In this document: in pieces, positions 1,776 to 64,000 of the stretch
How positions within the stretch are numbered: the first letter of the stretch is position 1
Layout of the letters: the number at the start of each line of letters is the position of its first letter
Notes under the pieces: generated by a model
The model's database searches: none
What the model saw: the letters and a program-made list of their open reading frames with translations, nothing else
What the model was told of the DNA's origin: nothing
Made by a program: the position numbers and the translations under genes
Source of the DNA: Branchiostoma lanceolatum
Taxonomy: Eukaryota; Chordata; Leptocardii; Amphioxiformes; Branchiostomatidae
DNA: 64,000 nucleotides
Assembly: GCF_035083965.1 (NCBI RefSeq)
Contig: NC_089722.1
Span: 21,507,142 to 21,571,141 of the forward strand
Reading direction: 5' to 3'

Positions 1776-4700
1776 GATGTTTTTGATGACAACCATCCTG
1801 GCATCTTCCAGGTCCTGCAGTTTCTTTTCCTTCTCCTGCAGTAGTTCCTAAAGAGAGTACATTCCGGGTGTGAGAAGACAGGAACTTCAGCGAAGGGTAA
1901 AGCAGAGGGTAGAGCCAAGCAGCACTTCAAAGAACAATCATGTAAATGCCACTAAATGGACATTGTTACATGTACTATGGCTGCAAGCAGGCAGAGGAAA
2001 TGGCAGTCAAAAACAGCACACTCCAAACTTCATGTTGTACTAATCTATTGTCACAAGACATTTAGGCAAAGTATTTACCATACCTGTAATAAAAGTCTTG
2101 TAAATTGTACTACTGTACTCAACAACGTGTCTTTTGCTTTGGTGGAACACCACAGCTTTGCAAGCACATGGCAGGGCCGGTATACAATGCCATGACTTAT
2201 ATAATGTGAATGGCTAGTCATACACAATCTGTACCTCACAGTCTTACAAGTGTAGCTCGAAGTGGGATCAAATCGCATTGCTTCCATTACAAATGTAGCC
2301 GATGCTACTGAGCAATAGTGGAAACCTGTGAGCTACACTACTAATTTGCTACTGCTTTTATATTTGAGAGTCTTGCAAAGTAAAAGACTTTTTGTCACTG
2401 CTTTGAGACAAACACAGACCCCACATCAGACAGTACCTGCATGGCATGTGTAGAGCTTCCCGTGGACGCCCGCGTCTTTCTGGCAGCGGCGCGGAGTTCC
2501 TGGGGGAAAACATTGCAAAAATGGTGAGTACGTGAACACATAAACATACTATTACAAGGCCAAGTAGGTACATACATTAGAAGAAAATGTATCTTTTGTC
2601 ATGTTTTGTATCAACTGACCAAAGGATACTAGCACACAAACTACCAGCACTGAGCTGCAATGTGGTGGGCACCTGTTTCACAGGACCAAGTGGGTCCTTG
2701 GGATCACTGGCCATATTTGGGGCAGCAGTTGGATCACCAGAGGTGTGAAAACTATATCATATAGTTTATGATTACTTGACACAACACATGAGGGATGTCC
2801 CTACAGCTCAACTGGTAGCAGCCTCAAAATTCAATTCCTAGTTCCAATTAGTTGTTAATTGGGAGAGACCTGGTTCCAATTCTGTATCAGGACATCACAG
2901 TTGGGGGACGTAAAATGTGGGTTCAAGAAGGTGCCTCAAGCATGATACAGGGGAAGGGCTAGCAACCCCTCCCTGTAAAGATATACCCTGCTACTGAAAC
3001 AGCAAGGAAACTTGCTGACATATACATCACTATAGCCACTACAAGGGTCTGAACAAACGATCGAACGAAGAACACAACACATGGCGGAACTTACAGAATG
3101 CCTTCCATATCCGGATGCAGAGCTGATGTTGGAACTGATGGAGCTGATAGAGCTGCTGCTGCCACTGCGAGACCTCGCCCCTGGAGTACCGAGGGGCAGG
3201 GGTGGGGGCGCTTCTGACTGGGCTTTCCTGGCAGCTATTCTTGCAGCTGTTGCAGAGCCTACAGGATGTACAAAAGTGTTCTTTTAGCTTATTTACATGT
3301 ACGTGGAATTATGTCACGTTACCTCTGTCAGTCAATCTAAAACTATGACTTAAACTGCACAAAAATGGCAATGCTAAAATGTGTTAATAGTACACTTTTT
3401 TCATTAGACATACAAGAAAGTAAACATCATATTCACTGTTCATTGTGTATACTCAACAAAATATTTAAGGCAATGCCAAGATGTGTTTATAGTACACCTT
3501 TGTCATTATAATATTACATATACCAAAGTATACATCATATTTCTAGTTCACTGTTCATATTGTGCATTTGCATGACAGCATGTTATATCAAAAGTCAACT
3601 ACATTACAAGTTAGACTTAGAGTCTACATATATTTGTGGTTGCAGCATGTTACAACCCCTACCTGGTACTGAGGCTTGTTTGGGCGTTGCCTTGGGAACA
3701 GGCTCCCCCTCCCCTAGAGGCTGGACCTTGTGCACCGGAGCAAACAGGCCAAACTTGGGCTTACAGGTGAAATATCTGTCATGGAAGGAGGAGAAGTATT
3801 GTTATCTTTATCAATTGTAATCATAATTAAGTAGAAAAATTTGGTCTGTTCAATGCTTTATTTCATCTGGAGGATAAGTACATCTGTAAGGTACCAAAGA
3901 AATACTCATAAAAGAACAAAATGTACCTCTCTATAATTTCATCTACTTATCATAATGTCTATTTATCATATATGCATAGTGGGTAGTTAAAACACCAGCT
4001 GAGACAGATGAAGTCCTGCTTTTAAAATTTGTCGGTTAGGATTTATTGAATGGCATCCAAATTTTGTAACATGAAGATTTGTTGTTCCCTCTTGGCTTCA
4101 AACCATATGGAAACTTGTCACTTCAACAGCAACAGTCTGACTGCCTGGCCATGATTCAGTTTAAGTACTAACATTTATAAAAGGTGACACTGAAATATAG
4201 AGAGGGGAGCAAATGACTTCTATAATCAACATAGCAGTGTTAATCACTGAGCCAGGATATGTTTGGATAAATTGTTTGGATATGGTCTAACTAGGACCAA
4301 CTTCCTTTTAGTGTTGTGCTAGTTTTCCATGTATTTTGAGTCCGCCTTCATATGTATTTTAGTCGTAAACGTCTCAAAGTATGTCTTTGAATTTTGAAAA
4401 TTGTCCAGTTACCTGGGCTAACCCTTTGTACTGGCCTTCAGCTAGTCGGGTAGCCCTGCGTGGCTGTACATTTTTTTACAGCCAAATGAATAAATCAAAT
4501 CAAATCTACAATCCAAACTGCTCACCTCTTCCCAGCCACAGATCCGTCGTTCTTCCCCTGTTCCTCCTCCAGCTCGACTCCGACCCACTCCCCCTTGGCA
4601 AAGTCTGTCGCCCCTAGATACCTCACCAGGCCTGCTTTTGTTCCACTCACCAGGACACGGTCCCCGAGACTGAACAGTTCCTCCGCCTTCTTCCCGATAT

Positions 4701-6220
4701 CCACCAGACTAGTCATGGACACACTGGGTGTCAAGGTCCCGACACTAGATCCCGCTAACCGCTGTTTCAGACTCGAAGTTTTCGTCGACATTGAGAGACG
4801 ACTGCTCGGTCTGTCCGTTTTCGACCCATTGACCGCGTCCCCGGCTCCTCTGGTAGAAGCCGAGCTGGATGCCCGCGACCTGGCCGCGGCCGCTGACGGC
4901 ACCCCTGCGGTAGCACCAGGCGATGCCTGCTCTCTTGTAAGTTTTGCAGCTCGCGAGAATACACCATGCTGCGGCGTACACTGGAAGTATCGCACACCGG
5001 CCACGGATCCATCGTTCTTCCCGACCGGGTCGTCCAACACGATTCCGACCCACTCGCCGGGCGCAAACTGCGTTTCACCGATAAACTGGATATGTCCAGC
5101 CTTCGTGCCCGCCACATAGGCGCGGTCGCCTATCTTCCATCCATCTGAAGATAATACAGAAGAGGCCGCAGCCTTAGTGGTGGCGGAGGCATACAAGCCT
5201 GTAAAGTGTTGTATGCCTGTACAGTGCGTGTGGAGAGAAGTTCAGGGTGTGAGTAGTCATGCAAAGGAACAGCCTCGGGTTCAAGTGCAATTCAAGTGGT
5301 AGTCATGCTTGTTTACTTATTTATTGTGGTCATGCATTAACAACATACCATTTACTGTGATATCAACCTTAACCATGCAGTACACCAATTTCAAAATGTA
5401 GAATTAATGCTACACAACTTGCAGTATAATTCAGTTTCTAAAGATTAAGACAGTCAGTGAAAGCCTTTTCTTGTGAGCGATTTGTAAGAATCATGCACCA
5501 TGCACCTTAGAAGAGTCATGCAATTCTTTGGACGCTTTGAAATTATACCAAGGCTGAAGTGTACAGTCATGCCCTTTTGAAACAGATACAGAGACAGGTT
5601 GTGCATGTGCATATAAATTGTGCAGTTGGTACAGAGCTGACAGTCTGTCTGCAATGACTCTCAGTCTGCATATTGTATGAGAACAACACAGCACTACTGC
5701 ACTTCAGGACTGCCTACACATTGTAGTACACATGTACGTAAAGAACAAAGTTGTGAGAAACAAAGTTGTAAAACAAAACTTGTACTAATGTTCCAAAAAC
5801 CTTAAATGATAACGGTGGCAATAATAAAATAAACAACAAATGGCACTTACATGTAAATGAAATAAGTTAAAAGAAATACAGAAATTACAGCTTGCACACC
5901 TGTTAACGACTTTTTAATCAGAAACAGCTACCTTTAGATATACTTTTACAAATAGAAGAGGCCATACATAATGCAGTATTACCATATTCAGTACAATGTA
6001 ACTTTTCCTTACCTGAAGCTGCACCTTTTGCAGCACCTGCACCTGGCGCACCTTTGCCGGCTCCAGCTGCACCTTTCGCTGCACCTGCAGCACCTTTAGC
6101 TGCACCTGCCGAACCTTTAGCCGCCCCGGCTGTACCTCCTGCCTTGGGGATCCCTGTGCCCCCAGGTTTGGCTATCTTACTGGGCGGTTTCAGCCCAGAC
6201 GGTTTCCCTATTGAGCTCAT
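1776..6220 (-). CDS. CLIP1: CAP-Gly linker protein (CLIP-170/CLIP-115 family), 5' part, 3' end off the window
   Basis: Microtubule plus-end tracking protein. Coding exons on the minus strand: 6220-6013 (ATG, MSSIGKPSGLKPPSKIAKPG), 5198-4526, 3775-3663, 3258-3095, 2499-2437 and 1847 to about 1776; phases agree across the first five. Exon 1 carries an Ala/Gly/Lys-rich repeat instead of the usual short linker. Exon 2 holds CAP-Gly 1 (GEWVGIVLDDPVGKNDGSVAG with YFQCTPQHGVF) and most of CAP-Gly 2 (GEWVGVELEEEQGKNDGSVAG), completed in exon 3 (YFTCKPKFGLFAPVHKV). Both have the GKNDGSV motif that binds C-terminal EEY/F tails. Exon 4 is a Ser/Arg-rich linker; exons 5-6 begin the coiled coil (ELLQEKEKKLQDLEDARM). 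No good donor is visible for the last exon, so its lower edge is uncertain. CLIP1 versus CLIP2 cannot be settled because the C-terminal zinc knuckles are outside the window. Confidence 0.9.
2780..3060 (+). mobile_element. tRNA-derived SINE
   Basis: A-box-like AGCTCAACTGGTAGCA is followed about 60 bases later by a B-box-like GGTTCCAATTC. A unique body follows, and an (GAAC/GAAA)-like 3' end with ACAAACGATCGAACGAAG. Lies in a CLIP intron on the opposite strand to the gene. Confidence 0.6.
4260..4506 (+). mobile_element. 3' end of a non-LTR retrotransposon
   Basis: Sequence ends in a tandem AATC tail (AATAAATCAAATCAAATC) preceded by a short hairpin (GGCTGTACATTTTTTTACAGCC), typical of CR1/L2-type 3' ends. 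It abuts the donor side of CLIP exon 2. Confidence 0.55.
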
Positions 6221-47408: not shown

Positions 47409-49811
47409 TCAGGCCTGAGTGTCCTCCTGCCCAGAGAAGGCGCTAAAGGTCGCGGGAGTGGCGTAGACGGTTGTCGGCGTGATTTCGGCCTCCACCTTCA
47501 CCTGTGAGCTGGACACTTCGGGCGTGCGAGGGATGGATTCCACGCTGATGCCGTTTTGACGGAGGGTTTCTCTCAACAGGTCAATTTCCTGTAAGTATCA
47601 ATGTCAACACGGTCAATGCACAGGACAATGACAATGCTTACATTCCAAATGAAACTGTGACTGCTGAACAAAGGATGATGGGCCATAATTGGACAAATCA
47701 CTCAACAAATTTCATAGATAAATTCTAATTTAAAGAAATTCTTTCATGTTTTGTAGTTTCGAATTATACTTAAACATTGCGCATCATGTTCAAATTAAGG
47801 ACCACACAAATCCAATTTTGGTCACTCAGCAGTTGCTTAGTAATCTTCCTCTAGTGAAAAGGGGGCCTCGCAATTAAACTGATATTAGAAAAACAATTAG
47901 ATTAGATTGATCTTGTCTCTGTCACCAGTACAAAGGAAGCATATTTTTCAGCCCTCCTGGTCAATATTTCCTGCATAATCCGTGCAGCATCTGTAGTCTA
48001 AGAGGACAGGTTACTGCAGTGGGTACGTGTACCTTCTCCAGATCAAGTGCATGTGCGTTCATCTTGTTCAGTTCCTGCTGCACTTCCTGTCGAGCCTGCT
48101 TCTGGGCATTGATCTTCTTCTCAGCCGTGTGCTGCACCGACATCAGGATGCCTTTTGTCATGAAATTTAAAAGCTGCAAAGTTACATTCTTTTTCCCAGG
48201 AAAAACAAATTTTTGCTCCAAATAAATTTTTGCTCCTTTAGGACCATGAGAGGCGATTAAAGTTTATAACTAATAATAAGTTTATTGCAAATTCGTGCCT
48301 GTAGGCTAATTGCAAGTTGACAACAATTAATGAGGATGCACAAACACAAAGTAAAACATAAGGTGTGATACAAACCACAAAGATTAAACTATGTTGCTAG
48401 TCTACAACAAAAAGTTTCTATAGCTACGATACTAATGCAGGGTTTGACTTCTTCATTGAAAGCAGTGGAAAATAAAATGTCCAACGTTTTCAATGATTAT
48501 TGGGTTGGATGATTTCAGAAGGAATATGACTCATGAGTTTCTGTGAATTTCTTAATCTAGAAAAGCTAAAACAATAGAAAACATTATGCAGTGAACGTTT
48601 GATTCAGAACAAGCAATGCTTTACAACTTGACATATCCACCAAAATTAAGTGTCCACCTGACTCAATACAAGTTGTTACAACAACAATAGAGTACTCCAC
48701 TCACCGTTGATTATTCTGGTGACTCGCCAAAGACGTAGAACAACCAATAGGCCAAGTCCGTCAAAGGCATCTTCGTGGTTAGCGTACGCAACGTCAAAGC
48801 AGAAGGACACGATGACAACAATAGCATCAAACAGCTCCATCTTGTGTTTGAGGTAATCCTTTTGGTAAGCGTAGATCTTAAACATGATCTCAATAACGAA
48901 GATGGTGAGGATGGCGATACTCATATAATGGAGGATCTCCGGAGCAGGGTGGTCACATTCCGCTTCCTTCTCTGCTTCTTCTGCAGGAGTCATGGCTGAA
49001 AAACATAAAAAAGACATCCAGGCACTTAGAATGAACACAGTCCTGAGAAACTGAGCAAAACTGAGGAGATACAAATTTGAAAAAGCTTACTTCCTGGGGG
49101 AAAGTAAAACTCACACTACGGTATACATTGTATATTCTTTGGATATCTGACGAACAAAAATTTGAATGTCAGGGTTGCATGTAGATAAAGAGACAATTAG
49201 AATTTAATCTGAATCAATAAATGAAAATGTTAATGAAGGATAGCCATATATGATATGATAAAGATGTGATAAGATACACAATTGAAAACTTTTCCAGTCA
49301 CTCACTGACATAAGATACTGTCTAAAACTGTCTGATGGTTAACAAAACTTCTCTTAATCAATCAAGTCATTTGGGAGAATCCATTTGATACAATGTACAA
49401 TCTTGATACCTTTTGTAGCAGCTGGACCCGCCAAGATCACTCTTTGTCTTTTCTCAAACCCTGATAAACTACTTTATACCCAACAAAATAAGTCTAGCTA
49501 ACTATAACTGGTGGATGGAACTCACTGGCAGTTACTCCCATATTCTGACATTCTGCCTTCACTGCCTCCTCGCATAGCTTTATCCCACCGAGGTCGATCA
49601 GCAGCTCAAACACGACCAGGATACAGTCCACGATCACGAGGATCACCACAGCAACCTGGAACTCCGTGGAGTGGAGCACGTGCAAGAGTTTCTCGCGGAA
49701 GGTTTTCGGTTCCGCGTTAGCTGATGAGCTGGTGTCTGACGATGTTACGACACTGCTGGTGTCATCGTTTTGGAACATCTGGAACTTGAAGGCATTCTTC
49801 AACTTGTCCAT
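47409..49811 (-). CDS. HVCN1: Voltage-gated proton channel Hv1, complete, four coding exons
   Basis: Membrane voltage-sensor protein that conducts H+ without a separate pore. Exons (minus): 49811-49526, 48995-48705, 48151-48033, 47588-47409; frame closes at 291 residues. Residues 1-45: cytosolic Ser/Thr-rich N-terminus. S1 (FQVAVVILVIVDCILVVFEL) carries the Asp of the selectivity filter. S2 (HYMSIAILTIFVIEIMFKIY) has the conserved acidic charge-transfer residue. S3 (ELFDAIVVIVSFCFDVAYA) and S4 (LLVVLRLWRVTRIINGIL) with three Arg at every third position follow. The C-terminal segment (NAQKQARQEVQQELNKMNAH to LLRETLRQNGISVES) is the dimerising coiled coil. A 35-residue tail rich in Thr/Pro/Ser, longer than in vertebrate Hv1, ends at EDTQA. 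The exon break splits S4 from the coiled coil at N-G. Confidence 0.96.
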
Positions 49812-55426: not shown

Positions 55427-56303
55427 ACAAGCAGTGAACAGTATCAAGCTTCAGACATCAGAACAAGTACTAGTAGTTTTTAATCGCAAAATATATATTA
55501 GTCAACTTAGCTGTATATATGTCCATCCCAACTATTGATAAACAGTCCCTGACAACTTCCCTCTTATCATACACCCATGATTTGTCTTAAAAACATGTGG
55601 CTGTGGAGAAAATATCATGGGCATTACCTGTAAATACAGCATAGTGAAAATTTATTTTCATCTTAACACATCACGCAAAGCTGCCACTTATCCAGCATAA
55701 GGCGACAAGAAGGAAGAATTTACAACATTAATCTATTTTTCAGGTTTGAACTGGTTTTACTCTTCACATTACATAACAAGGGACTGATTATAAGAAATCA
55801 GAAAAACCCTAAATTACCACTAATCAAGTATAGTATCAGAGGTCCCTTACCATTTTCTACAGCTCTCAAATTACATCACTTTGTTCTGTGTTCCTTTTTC
55901 TCAAAGTTAACTCTGATATGAGCCAATTGTCGATTTCTACGGGGACATCACAGAAAAAGAAACCAATTCACAGTACTGGCTAATCTGTTGTAACATACAC
56001 AGAAGTACAGTTTTTGTTACAGAGATTGGGGCACCTACATCATTTCTTTATTTACAAGGACTAACCCTTTGTGATATCTAGGTTAGCAGTGGGAAGATAA
56101 CTAAAATGGTCGTTCATCAGGTAAGACCAACTCTAGAGGGTAGCTATGTGAGATAACCCGCTGCACGTGGCATGGTTGTGTAGTTCCCGCGGAGGTAAGG
56201 GGGTTACGTCTCCCTCGTACCGCGCACCTCTCCCTCTTTTCTTTGCTGCAAAACAAGAAGAAGCCATGTAAGTCACGCATCAAGCCTCTCGAGTTTGATT
56301 GAA

Positions 56304-57077: not shown

Positions 57078-60000
57078 TTAGTCTAAGGATCCGTGCCCAC
57101 GAATCTCATCTTCGGCACGTTGCTGGGAGGAAAAAGTACATGGCATGCTATCACCACTAACACATGCAAAAAAACATATTTTAAAGACTACATATTGCTC
57201 CCTAGCCTGTGTTACACAGTCTCTTGCTTCCAGGTGCTAGTTGGCCCCTTCCTAAAGAGGAGAGCCGGTCCATTGAACAGGTCTTTTGGAGTTCAATTTA
57301 TTCAGGCTACATTGCTTGTCTTTGATATTTATCATCAGTTTAAAATCTGATAAAATATAAGGTGAACTTTTGTAAAATGGAGTCACCAGTTCAGAATCAG
57401 AAGATGATTGTTAAAATCAACAACTTTGAAGGTGTTGGACTATCAGAAGGAAGTAGGTCAGACTTACTTTTTGAAGAATGCAATATGTAAACTAAAAATT
57501 CTATCTTGCTCAACTTTTAGATATAAAATTGAACTAATCACCTTTGCGCTAAGAGTCAGAGGGAACTAGGTTATAGCTCCTTATTGAGAATGAAATACAT
57601 CAACTAAAATTTTGGCCTCCCTTGCCCAAATCTTAGATCTTAAAATATTGGATGTCAGGGTTTCGCCTAAGCAGCTCACCTTGTCCAACTCCAGTTTAGT
57701 CTCGTCCTCCAGACGGCGGATGTCCTCCATCGTCAGACCATGCCACTCGTCCAGCCAACAGAACAGCTGGCGGTGGAAGTTGGTGAAAATCCGGCGCTCC
57801 GACTGGCGGAACAGAAGGTCACACGTTGGGAACAAATTAGACAAACCTGAAGTTAAGCATGCTGTTTGATTTGGAGACCACAGAATTGGTCATGTGCATG
57901 TTTTTGCATGCATTCAGTTGTGCATGTTTTTACATGCACTAAGTTGTGCATGTTTTTGCATGCACTCAGTTGTGCATGTTTTTGCATGCATTCAGTTGTG
58001 CATGTTTTCAATTGTGAATGTTTTTGCATGCATTCAGTTGGGGAAAAATATGTATCGGGTAATCAGAATTTTAAACAGACTTCTATTGAACACATCAACT
58101 GTGCATAATTAGGGAAGGGGCGGTGCAAATGGTATGATGGGTATACAGGTATTCCAGACAAATACAGCAATAGATATTTTCTTTCAAAGCCAAGCTTTCT
58201 TTTTGCTAAAAAGCTGAGGAATTCAGTTGCAACTTATCAAAAAATCAGTCAGAAATGTGACTTTTCTCAAAAGAACATAGTATAAATATCACTGACAGTA
58301 CAAAAGCCTAAACAATCCCAAAATTCGTATGAAAATTTTTATTGCATTTTATACAGAAAACCAAAAATTTCAAGTAAGCAAATCCAGAACTTTGATTATC
58401 AAATGTTCCCTCAACACTTTGTTGTTACCATGCAAGAACACATACCTAGCACATTGCCCAGGACAATACATCACGCAGAATGGACGAATCCTCACACAAG
58501 AAACACGCAAGAGAGCGGAAACGCTTGCGAAGTTGCCTAATATGCCAAACTTGTTTCCCCGACCACAGCCTATATGTCATTGTTCAAAGTTGAAAGGAAT
58601 TACCATCTGACCTTTGAACTATGACATTCTAAGGTCAGTGGTTAAAAGGAGAATCTTTTCAACAAAAAGCACAAGAGAGCCGAAAGACTTGAGAAGGTGC
58701 TAAATATGCCGAACTTGTTTCCCTGACCACAGCCTATATTTCATTGTTCAAAGGTAGAGGGTATTACCATCCGACCTTTGAACTATGACACTTTTAAAGG
58801 TCAGGGGTTAAGAGGTAGAAAAAGCACATCCAGGATCAAAACACTGCAAAACGATGGAGGGTTAGCAGCTTGGTTAGCCGTGCAGGACAGGACGATGTTA
58901 CCATGAAGGCCTACAGCACAAGGGAAAGGGTCCGACTTTGCCACATGCACCTCTCACCTTCTGGATAAAGTGCTCTACTGCGGTTTGCAGCCCCCACCAC
59001 TTGAACTCTATAGTAACTAACTTGTATGCACACATGAGGGCCTCTTTCTCCTGAAATAACAGGGCCATAGGTAAGTACATGGGACAGACAACAATTCACC
59101 CCTCTGGGCAACAGTTTGTGAACAACACTTGAAATGGAAAGTCGCAGTATTTTTGAAAACTTGAGATTTTGAAGGCCTTTGTTATCTCTTGTTTATGATG
59201 TGTCTGTTTGTTGATTTTTCGTTTCCACACTTATTTCATGCTAATACATGCTAGGCATGTTGGGGACAATGACAGGAAGTTAGGTCAAAGGTCCCAGAAT
59301 AGGTTATCTCATTTCCTGCCATCAATTTCCTGCTGCACATCTGTTGCCATATGGGAGCCAGTGGGAAAATCCACAGAGTCAGCGAGAAATTTGTAAAAAC
59401 TAATGATATTTCACCAAAGTATAAGATCGTCAATTTCTTGTTTTCCCCTGCTTTCCATTTCATGTACAAGGTATCGGCACAAACCATTACCGCAGGAGGG
59501 GGTACACGTGGACACAGCTATCGCTTCTTACCTTCTGAATGAACTTTTCCACTGCAGTTTGAAGCCCCCACCACTTGAATTCAACAGTTACTAACTTGTA
59601 GGCACACATCTGCGCCTGGTCTGTCTGTGAACAAAAGTTGTGTAGCATACTGTGTTCAATTCTGCAGGGCTCCTCTTTTTCTAGCATTTTCATAACATCC
59701 AGAATCTCCATCCACAGTGTGAGAAGCTTTGATAATTACTACAATCCACATTTATGAATGCCTGAATGCTGATTTCTCTGTATTTGGTTTTCAAGAAGTT
59801 GTAGCCAGGGGTTGGTGTCCTAAATCTATAAAAGGCCATTAAGTTGTTTTCTTTACAAACTATCAGACAAGATGACCCATCTGTGGAATATCTGGATGCA
59901 TGAAAATGCTTGCTATAAACTATAAAAAAGATTGAAAATCAATAGTAGTACAAACAAAATGTAGTTGATCTTCTTAATGATTCCATAATTTTGAAATACA

Positions 60001-63000
60001 AAGATAGGAGGAGTGTTTAAAGATATTTCTACTTCAGAAAACTACTCAGATTTTCTGCCGAGCGCAATGTGAAAGTTTGAGCGATAAAGCAAGAAATGAA
60101 CTTTTTATATCACCGTGTTCTTTTGCTCCATGCCACCGCACCACTAAGAACCATCTGGCAAATTTTTTCTTGATAAGGTTGTCTCACATCAAATATTTTC
60201 TCAGATAAATACATAATTTTGAACAAGCAAGAAAAAAAATTTCAATTCTTCTTTTGGTTTGTGTGTTATAAGCAATATAAATATTTTTGATGTTGATATT
60301 CTTTTTGCAAATAGACAAAAATTGAAGGCGGTTTAGGAAAATTTTCATCCAGCCTCCAGCAAACTTGTTTCACAGCCTTTTATGCCCTCAACTATGCCAT
60401 TGTTACATAAGCAGCTATCAGTAGCTAGAAGCAATAGTTAAGTGTACTACAGCTTGTATGAATGTATATTTTGTTTGTGAAAGGTTGAAGTAGCAGCTGT
60501 TACCTCCTTTGCCAGCTTCTTCTGCAAAAATGAGCAAAAGAACAACAGCAGAAAATCAGCACCAAGGACAGACAACATGCACTGTATACAATGTGAAACT
60601 TATAACTATTAATCTCAATGTGGGATAGAATATACATACAGACATATTTCAGAGCATATTTCAACTTGAAAGTTGCTATAATCTGTTCATATGTTATAAC
60701 ATGTATGTTCACACCTAGCACATACAAATAGAATCAATGAAACAAGTTTTCTGTGCACCTACGTTTTTAGGTTAGGTGCACCAGTGCACCCATTCCCAAC
60801 AATGAATTTCGAGCCCTGGTACTAAAAACTAGTACACTACACAGGTAAGGAAATCAAGCAGGACTTACTATCCAGTCCCCCTTGAGTGGCCCCCTGTCAG
60901 TCTTGAAGGAGTGGTACACAGAGGGGTCCTCCTTAGGGTTGTAATCTCTCCTGTCCACAGGGTCATTACCAATGTCAATGTCCACCTTATCCACGTTTCT
61001 CCACACCTCGGGTGCCACCTTGTGGGGCTGGCAACAAAACAAAAAGACTTTATAAACACAAGGTGAGATTTTAATGATAACTGTACATCCCTCAAATAGA
61101 TCTTACCTAAAATATATGGTGAAAACAATTTGTCTGCTATAAAAAGATGCCTGGTCCAAGGTAAAATAATTCTTTGTCTGGTTTTGGTGTCTAGCATGGT
61201 TCAATGTTCCATTGGAGACCAAAGCTTATAAATATAGCCATATAATTGATGTTAGCATCTATCTGTTTTAGAGTGCAACTTTAACCCTCCCCACATATCA
61301 TTAAGAAGCAAAATTTAAGAGTTTTCTAATATCATATTTGGCAGACCAACATTTTTCTGACATATTTCAGAATGGTACCAATATATTTCTATGAATATCA
61401 AACAAACATAAAAGCCATCTAGAATAGGCTAACGTAATGGCAAACTTCTACTCACATATCTGAAAAGTGCTAGTCTCATAGATCATGAATTTCTCTCAAC
61501 AAGAAGCTGTGAAATACAATCAGGTTCCTTACATTGTCTAGGTTCAATTCCTTTTTGTGCCATGTCTCGATCCTCAGCTCGAAGTTTTCTTTCATATAGT
61601 CCGGATTCTGCAAGAAATAAAGACTCCATCTCAGTGATGAATATGTGAAAAAAAAGGGACACATGCAAATCAGTATAACCAGAGAACTTTACAGTAAAGT
61701 TCCCATGCATATTTTACAATTACATGCACTGTAGATTTATAACAATCATCTACCACCAATGCTGGACACAATATAATGAAGTTTGCTTGCAAGGCAATGC
61801 ACTTGTCAATATTACAGGTCATACTTCTGATCATAATCTTCACAACATTGCAGGGTGAAGTCAATGTCAAAAGTACTTACTGTGATGACTGTTGGTGACA
61901 GCAGACAGGGAAAAAAAGACAAAATTAGCTTTTGAAAAAACATTTTGAACAAACATTTTGATAATCTGTCACTAATTTCATCTCCAAGCAGATGTGTGAA
62001 GACTTCCTGTAATCAGAACTAGTAGTACCAGTACCAGGTACTGGAAATTCTCATGTATGGTATACTGCAAAATTCTCAAGACATGCTGGCGCTATTTTCA
62101 ACTCTAACGGTCTTTCATTTTTTCTGTTATTCAATGACTGAACAGCATGGGACAATATACAATACAGACATCATATTATAATGATGTCAACAATATGGTG
62201 CATTGTAGATGCCAAGTTAAAAAGTAAAGAAGAAGTTGAAAGTTTTCAAATCTGAATGTTCTCTTGGACCCTTGATATAAGTTACACATTGTATAACGTT
62301 CTGCGACATTGATTTAAGTGCCATGAGGGACACGGTATCACGGGGAAAAAAGTAAGGAAGCATACTCACTGGTCCTACAGTAAGGATAAGCATTCCACGC
62401 CTTCTCGTGCATTTCTAATGATCCCTTGGGTGCTAACTTAGATATCCACTTGGGAACTTTACTGTAAGGATGGGAACAAACAATAATGTAATTTAACGAG
62501 ACAATTAATGATTTTACTCCATTCATAAACCAACAAGAATGAGTCTATTCCAACAAAAAAATCACCTAAAATTATCCACTTGATTTAGAAATGACAGCCT
62601 TGCTTTTCTAAATTCAATTTTGTTCCCTTCTGGTATACAGACATACCATAAACATTCACAAGAAAACAGTTAGTCAAGCTATTGGATTGATTTTGGAAAT
62701 GGTCAGACATTTCAGGTTGCATTCACAGCCTTTCGTCAGTGACTGGGTAACTGTTTTCTTGCGTGTCTTATTACCTGGATGTCTAACCTTCATCGACAGC
62801 ATTTTTAAGCATAGCTTTAAAATGGTCATTTCAATGTAGGCTCACTACCTGAAGTATACATATATTGTATTTAAACAAATGTCCAACACAGACAAATAAA
62901 GGGCAAACTTAACAACTCAACCTACCTTTTCAGATGGTAGATCTTGTGAGTGTATTGCCCCTTTCCCATCTCCTCATTTTCAAACGGCTCGTTGACGAGT

Positions 63001-63074
63001 ACCTCCACACCTTCGCCGCCTCCTGTTTCGTTCTTGCTCGCCTCCGCGACAGACCATAGCTGGCCGACCTGGTA
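57078..63074 (-). CDS. PITPNB: Class I phosphatidylinositol transfer protein, lacking its first coding exon
   Basis: Cytosolic protein that exchanges PI and PC between membranes. Exons (minus): 63074-62926, 62461-62370, 61888-61881 (8 nt), 61607-61533, 61027-60869, 60521-60504 (18 nt), then 59624-59532 or 59050-58958 (near-duplicate exons), 57802-57680, 57122-57078 (stop). Begins in [20 protein letters not shown], so only the roughly 20 N-terminal residues are missing; I found no first exon up to 64000. Headgroup-contact regions are present: [30 protein letters not shown], and [16 protein letters not shown]. The membrane-docking WW pair (FKWWGLQ) is encoded in both alternative exons. Ends [16 protein letters not shown] and PITPNB are vertebrate duplicates, so the symbol is nominal. 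Confidence 0.94.
57892..58041. repeat. 26-bp minisatellite, about six units
   Basis: Unit TGTGCATGTTTTTGCATGCA plus TTCAGT. Each unit contains a GCATG...CATGC dyad. One unit is truncated (near 58000). In the PITP intron upstream of the 57.7-kb exon. Confidence 0.93.
58490..58825. repeat. Two-copy tandem duplication, about 170 bp
   Basis: CAAGAGAGC(G/C)GAAA, ATATGCC(A/G)AACTTGTTTCC, GACCACAGCCTATAT and GACCTTTGAACTATGACA occur in the same order in both halves. Immediately downstream of PITP exon B. Confidence 0.85.
58958..59050 (-). other. PITPNB: PITP duplicated exon, copy B (93 nt)
   Basis: Encodes 31 residues starting [20 protein letters not shown] and ending AVEHFIQK. Same length and phases as copy A 480 bp upstream, with acceptor ATTTCAG and donor AAG|GTGAGA. 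It differs at eight positions, mostly in the first five residues, plus V to I and K to H. No stop or frame damage, so it looks functional. Confidence 0.9.
59532..59624 (-). other. PITPNB: PITP duplicated exon, copy A (93 nt)
   Basis: Encodes 31 residues starting [20 protein letters not shown] and ending AVEKFIQK. Acceptor TTCACAG, donor AAG|GTAAGA; both boundaries are phase 0. TDQAQ aligns with the DCPQ of vertebrate PITPs, so A is probably the ancestral version. Confidence 0.9.
60504..60521 (-). other. PITPNB: 18-nt microexon of the PITP gene
   Basis: Codes KKLAKE between GDWI (donor GTAAGT) and the duplicated exon; acceptor TTTTTGCAG, donor GAG|GTAACA. It aligns with WKKELANN in vertebrate PITPs. 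Both junctions are phase 0, so the exon can be skipped without frame loss. Confidence 0.82.
60740..60818 (-). mobile_element. hAT-like element end with GGTGCAC motifs
   Basis: On the minus strand it starts CAGGGCTCGAAATTC and has GGTGCACTGGTGCACC and a third GTAGGTGCAC. The same layout as the ends at 7131 and 8631. In a PITP intron. Confidence 0.5.
61881..61888 (-). other. PITPNB: 8-nt microexon of the PITP gene
   Basis: The preceding exon ends in phase 1 after CRT (A|GTGAGT) and the next begins in phase 0 at NPDYM. The only way to close the frame is the 8-nt TCATCACA flanked by CACCAACAG and GTAAGTAC. It gives CRT-IIT-NPDYM, matching CRTIVTNEYM of vertebrate PITPs. Confidence 0.88.
62660..62795 (+). 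repeat. Interspersed repeat, second copy of the 10.4-kb repeat
   Basis: Shares CTTATTACCTGGATGTCTAA and a preceding TTTCGTCAGTGAC segment with the copy at 10355-10475. Located in a PITP intron. Confidence 0.6.
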
Positions 63075-63238: not shown

Positions 63239-63673
63239 TGTGGAATAGACGAATTTGAACCACAGAAACTGGTTCCATCATAGGGGGGAATTTGCTCACA
63301 AACTGTCTGTGTCACTGCGCCCGTCCGTTTCATCAACATTCCCAGATCCTGTAGGAATCAGGTGTTTGATTACAATCTGACTGTTTTACGACAGTTAAGT
63401 ACACAGTAAGCCATTTTTCTCAGTAGTTTACGAAAGTGAGGAAGGGGAATAGCCGCCGACATTGTATAGCAATGCCCGGAAACGTTCAACGCCATGTGTG
63501 CAGGCGCCGGGGAAGAGTTAATACCCGTGAAACGCCTGGCTCTGAGACACTGGTTGGGGTTCAGGGAACACGTTCTATTTCTTATAGATGTGCGTGATGA
63601 CATAAACAGTTTGTGAGAAAAATCCCCTCTACGACGAAACCAGTTTGTGTGGTTCACATTCGTCTATTCTACA
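63239..63673. mobile_element. 435-bp MITE with about 105-bp TIRs
   Basis: TGTGGAATAGACGAA and GTTCCATCATAGGGGGG at the left match, inverted, ATTCGTCTATTCTACA and CCCCTCTACGACGAAAC at the right; CTCACAAACTGT also pairs. The interior is CpG-containing. No ORF and no clear target duplication. Lies upstream of the first recognised PITP exon. Confidence 0.85.
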
Positions 63674-64000
63674 CTGCACTGTGCACTTCATCATAACTAT
63701 TCATGCTTAACGTTCAGTAGCTCTCAAATCTATATCATACATCAAAATACCAGTCCATAACAAATGGGACTTGATAACCACATGATAGATTACAATTGCA
63801 ATTGCAATAGTCCATTATGCCTGGGTCACACTAGAGGGCTGTTTTTCATTATGATATTTCAAACAAAGGTGTCACTGATAAGACAACATGAAGGACAGAC
63901 TAACATTGGGATGAACAGTACACACAAATTGTGCAGTGGTAAATTATATTTCCTAAAGAACTGAGCCATTAAGCAGGCATGACAGTTTGATATACAACCT

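Follow-up and report, generated by a model that had tools for sequence, protein, structure and literature searches.

A gene for a class I phosphatidylinositol transfer protein (PITP) was identified, for the most part complete, on the minus strand (positions 63074–56204) of a 64,000-nt stretch of Branchiostoma lanceolatum DNA (hereafter, the window). Two neighbouring 93-nt exons of this gene, designated A and B, are an old tandem duplicate, and the splicing machinery would choose between them, with exactly one of the two entering each mRNA; we put the probability of this reading at about 0.75.

A class I PITP gene on the minus strand

The exons of the gene and the motifs considered below are as follows, with residues numbered as in the rat protein, the numbering used in PMC2635478.

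62926..63074, minus strand: PITP exon e2, coding
62370..62461, minus strand: PITP exon e3
61881..61888, minus strand: e4, an 8-nt microexon (TCATCACA), required for reading ...CRT-IIT-NPDY...
61533..61607, minus strand: PITP exon e5
60869..61027, minus strand: PITP exon e6
60504..60521, minus strand: 18-nt microexon encoding KKLAKE, the common upstream partner of exons A and B
59532..59624, minus strand: exon A, 93 nt, phase 0/0, PITP residues 186–216; PF02121 match unbroken with A
59051..59531, minus strand: A-B intron, 481 nt, with no TGCATG and two GCATG
58958..59050, minus strand: exon B, likewise 93 nt and phase 0/0; PF02121 match uninterrupted when B is used
58944..58949, minus strand: TGCATG, an RBFOX-type UGCAUG with putative function, from nt 9 of the intron that follows exon B
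57893..58040, minus strand: minisatellite built of TGTGCATGTTTTTGCATGCACTCAGT (26 nt) and variants of it, containing 5 TGCATG and located 110–230 nt before e9 in the intron 3′ of exon B
57680..57802, minus strand: e9, the common downstream exon, bearing Phe225 of class I PITPs
57078..57122, minus strand: C1, a possible last coding exon
56204..56245, minus strand: C2, a possible last coding exon, QRKEGEVRGTRET-stop, scoring closer to the PITP beta tail

A motif search of positions 64000–63075 did not find the first coding exon upstream of e2, which therefore presumably lies beyond the edge of the window. When the B form of the joined protein was compared with the PDB, using a query with one wrong residue, PITP alpha and beta structures were matched over residues 1–238 of 239; the best E value was 2.6e-103, and 5 distinct sequences were matched at E <=0.001. 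The Pfam PITP domain, PF02121, was detected in the joined protein at 343.4 bits, the cut-off being 21.3. In the available text of PMC8266687, T59, K61, E86, and N90 are given as binding inositol, and C95 and F225 as binding PC and telling class I from class II. The four inositol-binding residues were all present in the joined protein (4/4), as were C95 and F225, the latter being read off e9 in the PDB alignment.

Tandem duplication of a 93-nt exon

A sequence-only reading of this DNA had described two adjacent 93-nt exons, both in phase 0/0 and bounded by GT-AG, and this description was borne out, coordinates included. That reading had also considered both exons undamaged and provided with good splice sites, which agrees with the lack of in-frame stops, the GT-AG boundaries of both, and the similar donor and acceptor scores. 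The number of residue differences had been given as about eight; the actual count was 6 of 31 (25/31 identical), namely 186 T/E, 187 D/K, 188 Q/E, 190 Q/L, 199 V/I, and 212 K/H, and at the nucleotide level 22 of 93 positions differed. Concentration of the differences in the leading loop (TDQAQ versus EKEAL) was confirmed to the extent that 4 of the 6 lay at 186–190, but the fourth loop residue (A) was common to both. The K to H change near the end of the exon was located at residue 212, and the V/I difference at 199 (exon position 14) was one that the earlier list had lacked. As had been proposed, the frame is kept with both exons included: the joins with A, B, both or neither, made with either last exon, were open in 8/8 cases.

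The homology between A and B, together with their matched length, phase, and splice sites, established the tandem exon duplication that had been suggested. There were 92 open AG-93 nt-GT stretches on the two strands of the window, and only A and B among them resembled the exon (scores of 168 and 169 versus <=-4); the BLOSUM62 score of A versus B was 138, and the best among the other 90 stretches was -4. Tblastn of the entire window with A and with B as queries returned the other copy at E values of 2e-14 and 3e-14, the next match having an E value of 1.5. No third copy of the exon was detected, either among the 92 stretches on both strands or by tblastn of the window. The five other exons compared in this way, e2, e3, e5, e6, and e9, were each single copy in the window. 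An Rfam scan of the window returned nothing at the gathering score. Viral contigs gave no match, and a set of genome contigs containing no animal genomes gave 5 pattern matches and 0 relatives by tblastn.

Location of the differences in the protein

The available text of PMC2635478 states that WW203/204 is needed for membrane docking. The exon does carry this Trp pair, as the sequence-only reading had noted, but A and B do not differ in it. C192 and K195 were also fixed in both copies; K195 touches the lipid phosphate according to the accessible parts of PMC2635478 and PMC8266687. Vertebrate C188, described in the excerpted text of PMC2635478 as surface exposed, with a C188A mutant retaining normal PI transfer, falls within the differing loop 186–190, which precedes the strand. 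In this loop, EKEAL prolongs the charged, helical-looking run of KKLAKE and TDQAQ does so less, while PITP alpha and beta have Pro there. We infer that, beside the docking face, A and B would give a helix of different length or a surface of different chemistry.

PITP alpha (1t27) and PITP beta (2a1l) differ at 5 of the 31 positions (186, 190, 199, 208, and 215), and three of these five are also A/B-variable (P 0.038). This overlap suggests that the exon duplicates and the gene duplicates vary at similar sites, although it may only mean that such sites tolerate change. The contrast drawn earlier, in which vertebrates obtained their diversity by duplicating the gene into PITPNA and PITPNB, is thus suggestive only, with these three shared variable sites behind it. 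An assignment of A as alpha-type and B as beta-type was not supported. Identities to alpha and beta were 22 and 22 of 31 for A and 20 and 22 of 31 for B; by this measure, A is equally near to both and B only slightly nearer to beta.

Age of the duplication and selection on both copies

Four-fold sites differed between A and B in 6 of 9 cases, which is near saturation, and dS was 2.44 by NG86 and 1.38 by YN00, with dN of 0.14–0.15. The ungapped A/B repeat reached just 6 nt beyond the exon, into the donor, and no similarity below E 0.12 was found in a gapped comparison among the three introns around A and B. Judged by these sequence comparisons, the duplication is old and is not a haplotype artefact, since saturated silent sites and dissimilar introns do not suit an allelic duplicate in the assembly.

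The last 26 residues (codons 6–31) differed at only 2 positions, and the 13 nucleotide differences in this part were split 2, 0, and 11 by codon position. When 13 random changes were placed in codons 6–31 (50,000 runs), the mean was 9.1 residue changes, and two or fewer (<=2) without a stop occurred at a frequency of 2e-05. In simulations of neutral drift of one copy (20,000 runs), <=2 changes with no stop were obtained in 0.1% of the runs at 0.2 substitutions per site; at 0.35, 0.7, and 1.2 substitutions per site, the observed conservation was reproduced in 0 runs. As neutral drift fails to reproduce the conservation, both copies have probably been selected as protein over most of their separate history.

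The first five codons were much more changed than the remainder (9/15 versus 13/78 nucleotides, Fisher P 0.001) and were consistent with the neutral expectation (P 0.39). Because this loop is variable between PITP alpha and beta too, the A/B difference there may be mere relaxed constraint; the data on residues 186–190 may fit either relaxed constraint or useful diversification.

Probable mutually exclusive use of A and B

Among the isoforms with tail C1, those with A alone or B alone each scored 343.4 bits against PF02121 in a single 234-residue match, whereas the isoform with A and B together matched it as two stretches (372.9 bits), as did the isoform with neither (272.4 bits). Because the match is single and unbroken with either exon alone, the use of exactly one exon per mRNA would be the best-supported reading. 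The highest score, that of A and B together, presumably arises from counting the duplicated part twice, and the domain argument therefore rests on the break and not on the score.

In length, frame, splice sites, and homology, the pair also has the properties by which such exons are predicted in the available text of PMC3228551. These properties are not proof, since RNA-seq confirmed mutual exclusivity for 1,399 of the 6,541 candidates predicted in human and gave partial support for 1,741 more, as stated in the excerpted text of PMC5740500. The same text gives 377 of 629 human clusters with exon lengths not divisible by three; the length of A and B is divisible by three, so a frameshift would not eliminate transcripts that include both.

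Under the mechanism that we propose, each mRNA would join the microexon (60521–60504) through either A or B to e9. K195, the docking pair WW203/204, and the following segment would be the same in both cases, and the variable part would consist of the surface loop 186–190 (TDQAQ or EKEAL) together with V/I199 and K/H212. Protein factors would regulate the choice, RBFOX being one candidate, and the effect would be to adjust docking, stability or the binding of partners while leaving lipid selection unchanged.

Several other explanations were considered. Inclusion of A and B together, constitutively or in some isoforms, would yield a PITP with a repeated 31-residue segment; the symmetric exons (93 nt, 0/0), the open join, and the top total Pfam score of 372.9 bits would permit it, and the available text of PMC2394523 offers a precedent in vertebrate COE proteins, which keep a duplicated exon after a donor-site change. 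We consider such joint inclusion distinctly improbable: it splits the PF02121 match in two, the PDB alignments at E <=0.001 (5 distinct sequences) contain no such insert, and a second strand and WW loop would be placed after residue 216, past the WW loop that leads to helix F (the helix being taken from the accessible part of PMC8266687). It is also improbable that only one exon works, the other being a remnant that is silent or seldom used. The retention by A of one more loop residue common to alpha and beta (D187) and the presence of a branch-point-like CTTAC at the usual distance for B only would be in keeping with such a remnant, but neutral drift of one copy did not give the observed conservation, the Pfam scores were equal, and the donors and acceptors scored alike.

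The pair could also be viewed as an error of assembly that stems from two haplotypes or from the collapse of a tandem gene duplicate, a risk known from polymorphic marine genomes. With synonymous sites saturated, a repeat extending just 6 nt past the exon, nothing below E 0.12 in the intron comparison, and five other exons (e2, e3, e5, e6, and e9) in single copy, an artefact of this sort is hardly credible. The choice of exactly one exon per mRNA is the reading that we prefer.

Splicing signals around the exon pair

Splice sites were scored with a matrix, which gave donor scores of 7.0 for A and 6.6 for B and acceptor scores of 3.5 and 3.3, respectively. The donors, GTAAGA and GTGAGA, are U2-like. 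In scoring of the same kind, the 18-nt microexon encoding KKLAKE had the strongest acceptor of 9 scored (9.5) and the weakest donor of 7 scored (2.2).

The known safeguards of exclusive splicing (frame, steric block, U2/U12 clash, and intron pairing), none of which is obligatory, were not seen at the A/B pair. The A-B intron, with 481 nt, was judged too long for steric exclusion. Pairing of the docking/selector type among the three introns around the pair was not supported: of 60 shuffles, 46 did at least as well as the best ungapped stretch of I1-I2, 55 as that of I1-I3, and 16 as that of I2-I3. Complementarity within I1 and within I2 was equalled or beaten by 44/60 and 25/60 shuffles. A complementarity picked out by eye, GACCTTTGA versus TCAAAGGTC, was discarded as not being the top-ranking match.

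A branch-point-like CTTAC was present at the usual distance before B only, 22 nt from the acceptor. At nt 9 past the donor of B there is a TGCATG, with a chance of occurrence of about 0.010 per intron (first 20 nt) for a site that was picked after looking; it may be taken as a weak hint of RBFOX control. TGCATG occurred 7 times in the intron following B and 0 times in each of the two upstream introns, where the GCATG core was found once in I1 and twice in I2. An array of RBFOX sites in the intron after B was rejected as a candidate, because 5 of the 7 TGCATG sit in the minisatellite at 57893–58040 and the count is therefore not independent. The same intron holds a 126-nt block that is present twice (58501–58626 and 58665–58790), with a spacing of 164 nt and 85% identity.

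Alternative candidates for the last coding exon

C1 and C2 each close the reading frame. They have QR.E.E.RG in common, with 6 of the first 13 residues identical, and each was the best second match of the other in the window, at E values (0.70 and 0.40) that are not significant. For the tail formed by e9 and C2, the top score was with PITP beta (76.2 bits, versus <=70.4 for alpha), and for that formed by e9 and C1 it was with PITP alpha (72.3 bits, versus 68.9 for beta).

This layout resembles that of vertebrate PITPNB and would fit a tail choice older than vertebrate PITPNA and PITPNB, but with one species and short tails this is only a lead. We further consider, as a tentative idea that is on the whole unlikely, that one PITP gene combines two docking segments (A/B) with two tails to make four PITPNA/PITPNB-like proteins, the choice being tissue specific; if this were true, the tail choice would predate the vertebrate gene duplication.

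Other features of the window

An open frame on the minus strand at 4522–5241 contained two CAP-Gly matches (PF01302), and we take it to be CLIP-like. Also on the minus strand, positions 48676–49086 were recognized as a coding stretch of a voltage-gated proton channel, the best PDB match being 'Voltage-gated hydrogen channel 1' (E 2.4e-22). Upstream of e2, an 87-nt inverted repeat was observed (63239–63325 and 63587–63673), the arms of which are 82% complementary and 261 nt apart; it is perhaps a small mobile element.

Comparison with known systems

No report of an exon pair of the A/B type in a PITP gene was seen among the open-access PMC matches listed, as represented by their titles and the starts of their abstracts, and neither PMC5740500 nor PMC4465641, which survey homologous exons, mentions 'PITP' in its main text. 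The general phenomenon is not new, since exclusive homologous exons are numerous (1,399 verified in human, in the excerpted text of PMC5740500). As described in the available parts of PMC3228551 and PMC5740500, known homologous exclusive pairs resemble A and B in being neighbouring internal exons of equal length, with frame and homology preserved, inside a folded domain. The pair differs from the 377 of 629 human clusters (accessible text of PMC5740500) in that the frame safeguard is absent here, and the exclusivity of A and B is a predicted one.

A pair with a similarly placed motif is exon 7a/7b of C. elegans unc-32, in which, according to the available text of PMC3585155, a UGCAUG past the second exon favours the first. 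In both cases, a pair of exons (exclusive in unc-32) is followed by an intron that contains UGCAUG. The unc-32 site was tested by mutation in that text, whereas the PITP site is a motif match only. As the unc-32 site favours the first exon, the direction of an RBFOX effect on A and B is not predicted.

With respect to the tails, mouse Pitpnb makes two by skipping or inclusion of exon 11, as stated in the available text of PMC3896118. The present gene is comparable with the PITPNB sp1/sp2 forms (accessible parts of PMC3896118 and PMC8266687) in that C1 and C2, either of which may be the last coding exon, follow one another. These forms concern the tail and not the docking segment, and C1 and C2 are predicted from sequence.

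A parallel to the docking segment itself is offered by vertebrate PITPNA and PITPNB, which are likewise class I PITPs and whose versions of the segment differ at 5 of 31 positions, three of them A/B positions. In vertebrates, two genes encode the versions, whereas here a single gene encodes them in separate exons. Provided that both exons are used, the pair would constitute a natural six-residue swap around the docking segment, in which K195 and the Trp pair do not vary, and would offer a handle on the role of loop 186–190. Exon duplication and gene duplication would then have varied the same segment of one protein family.
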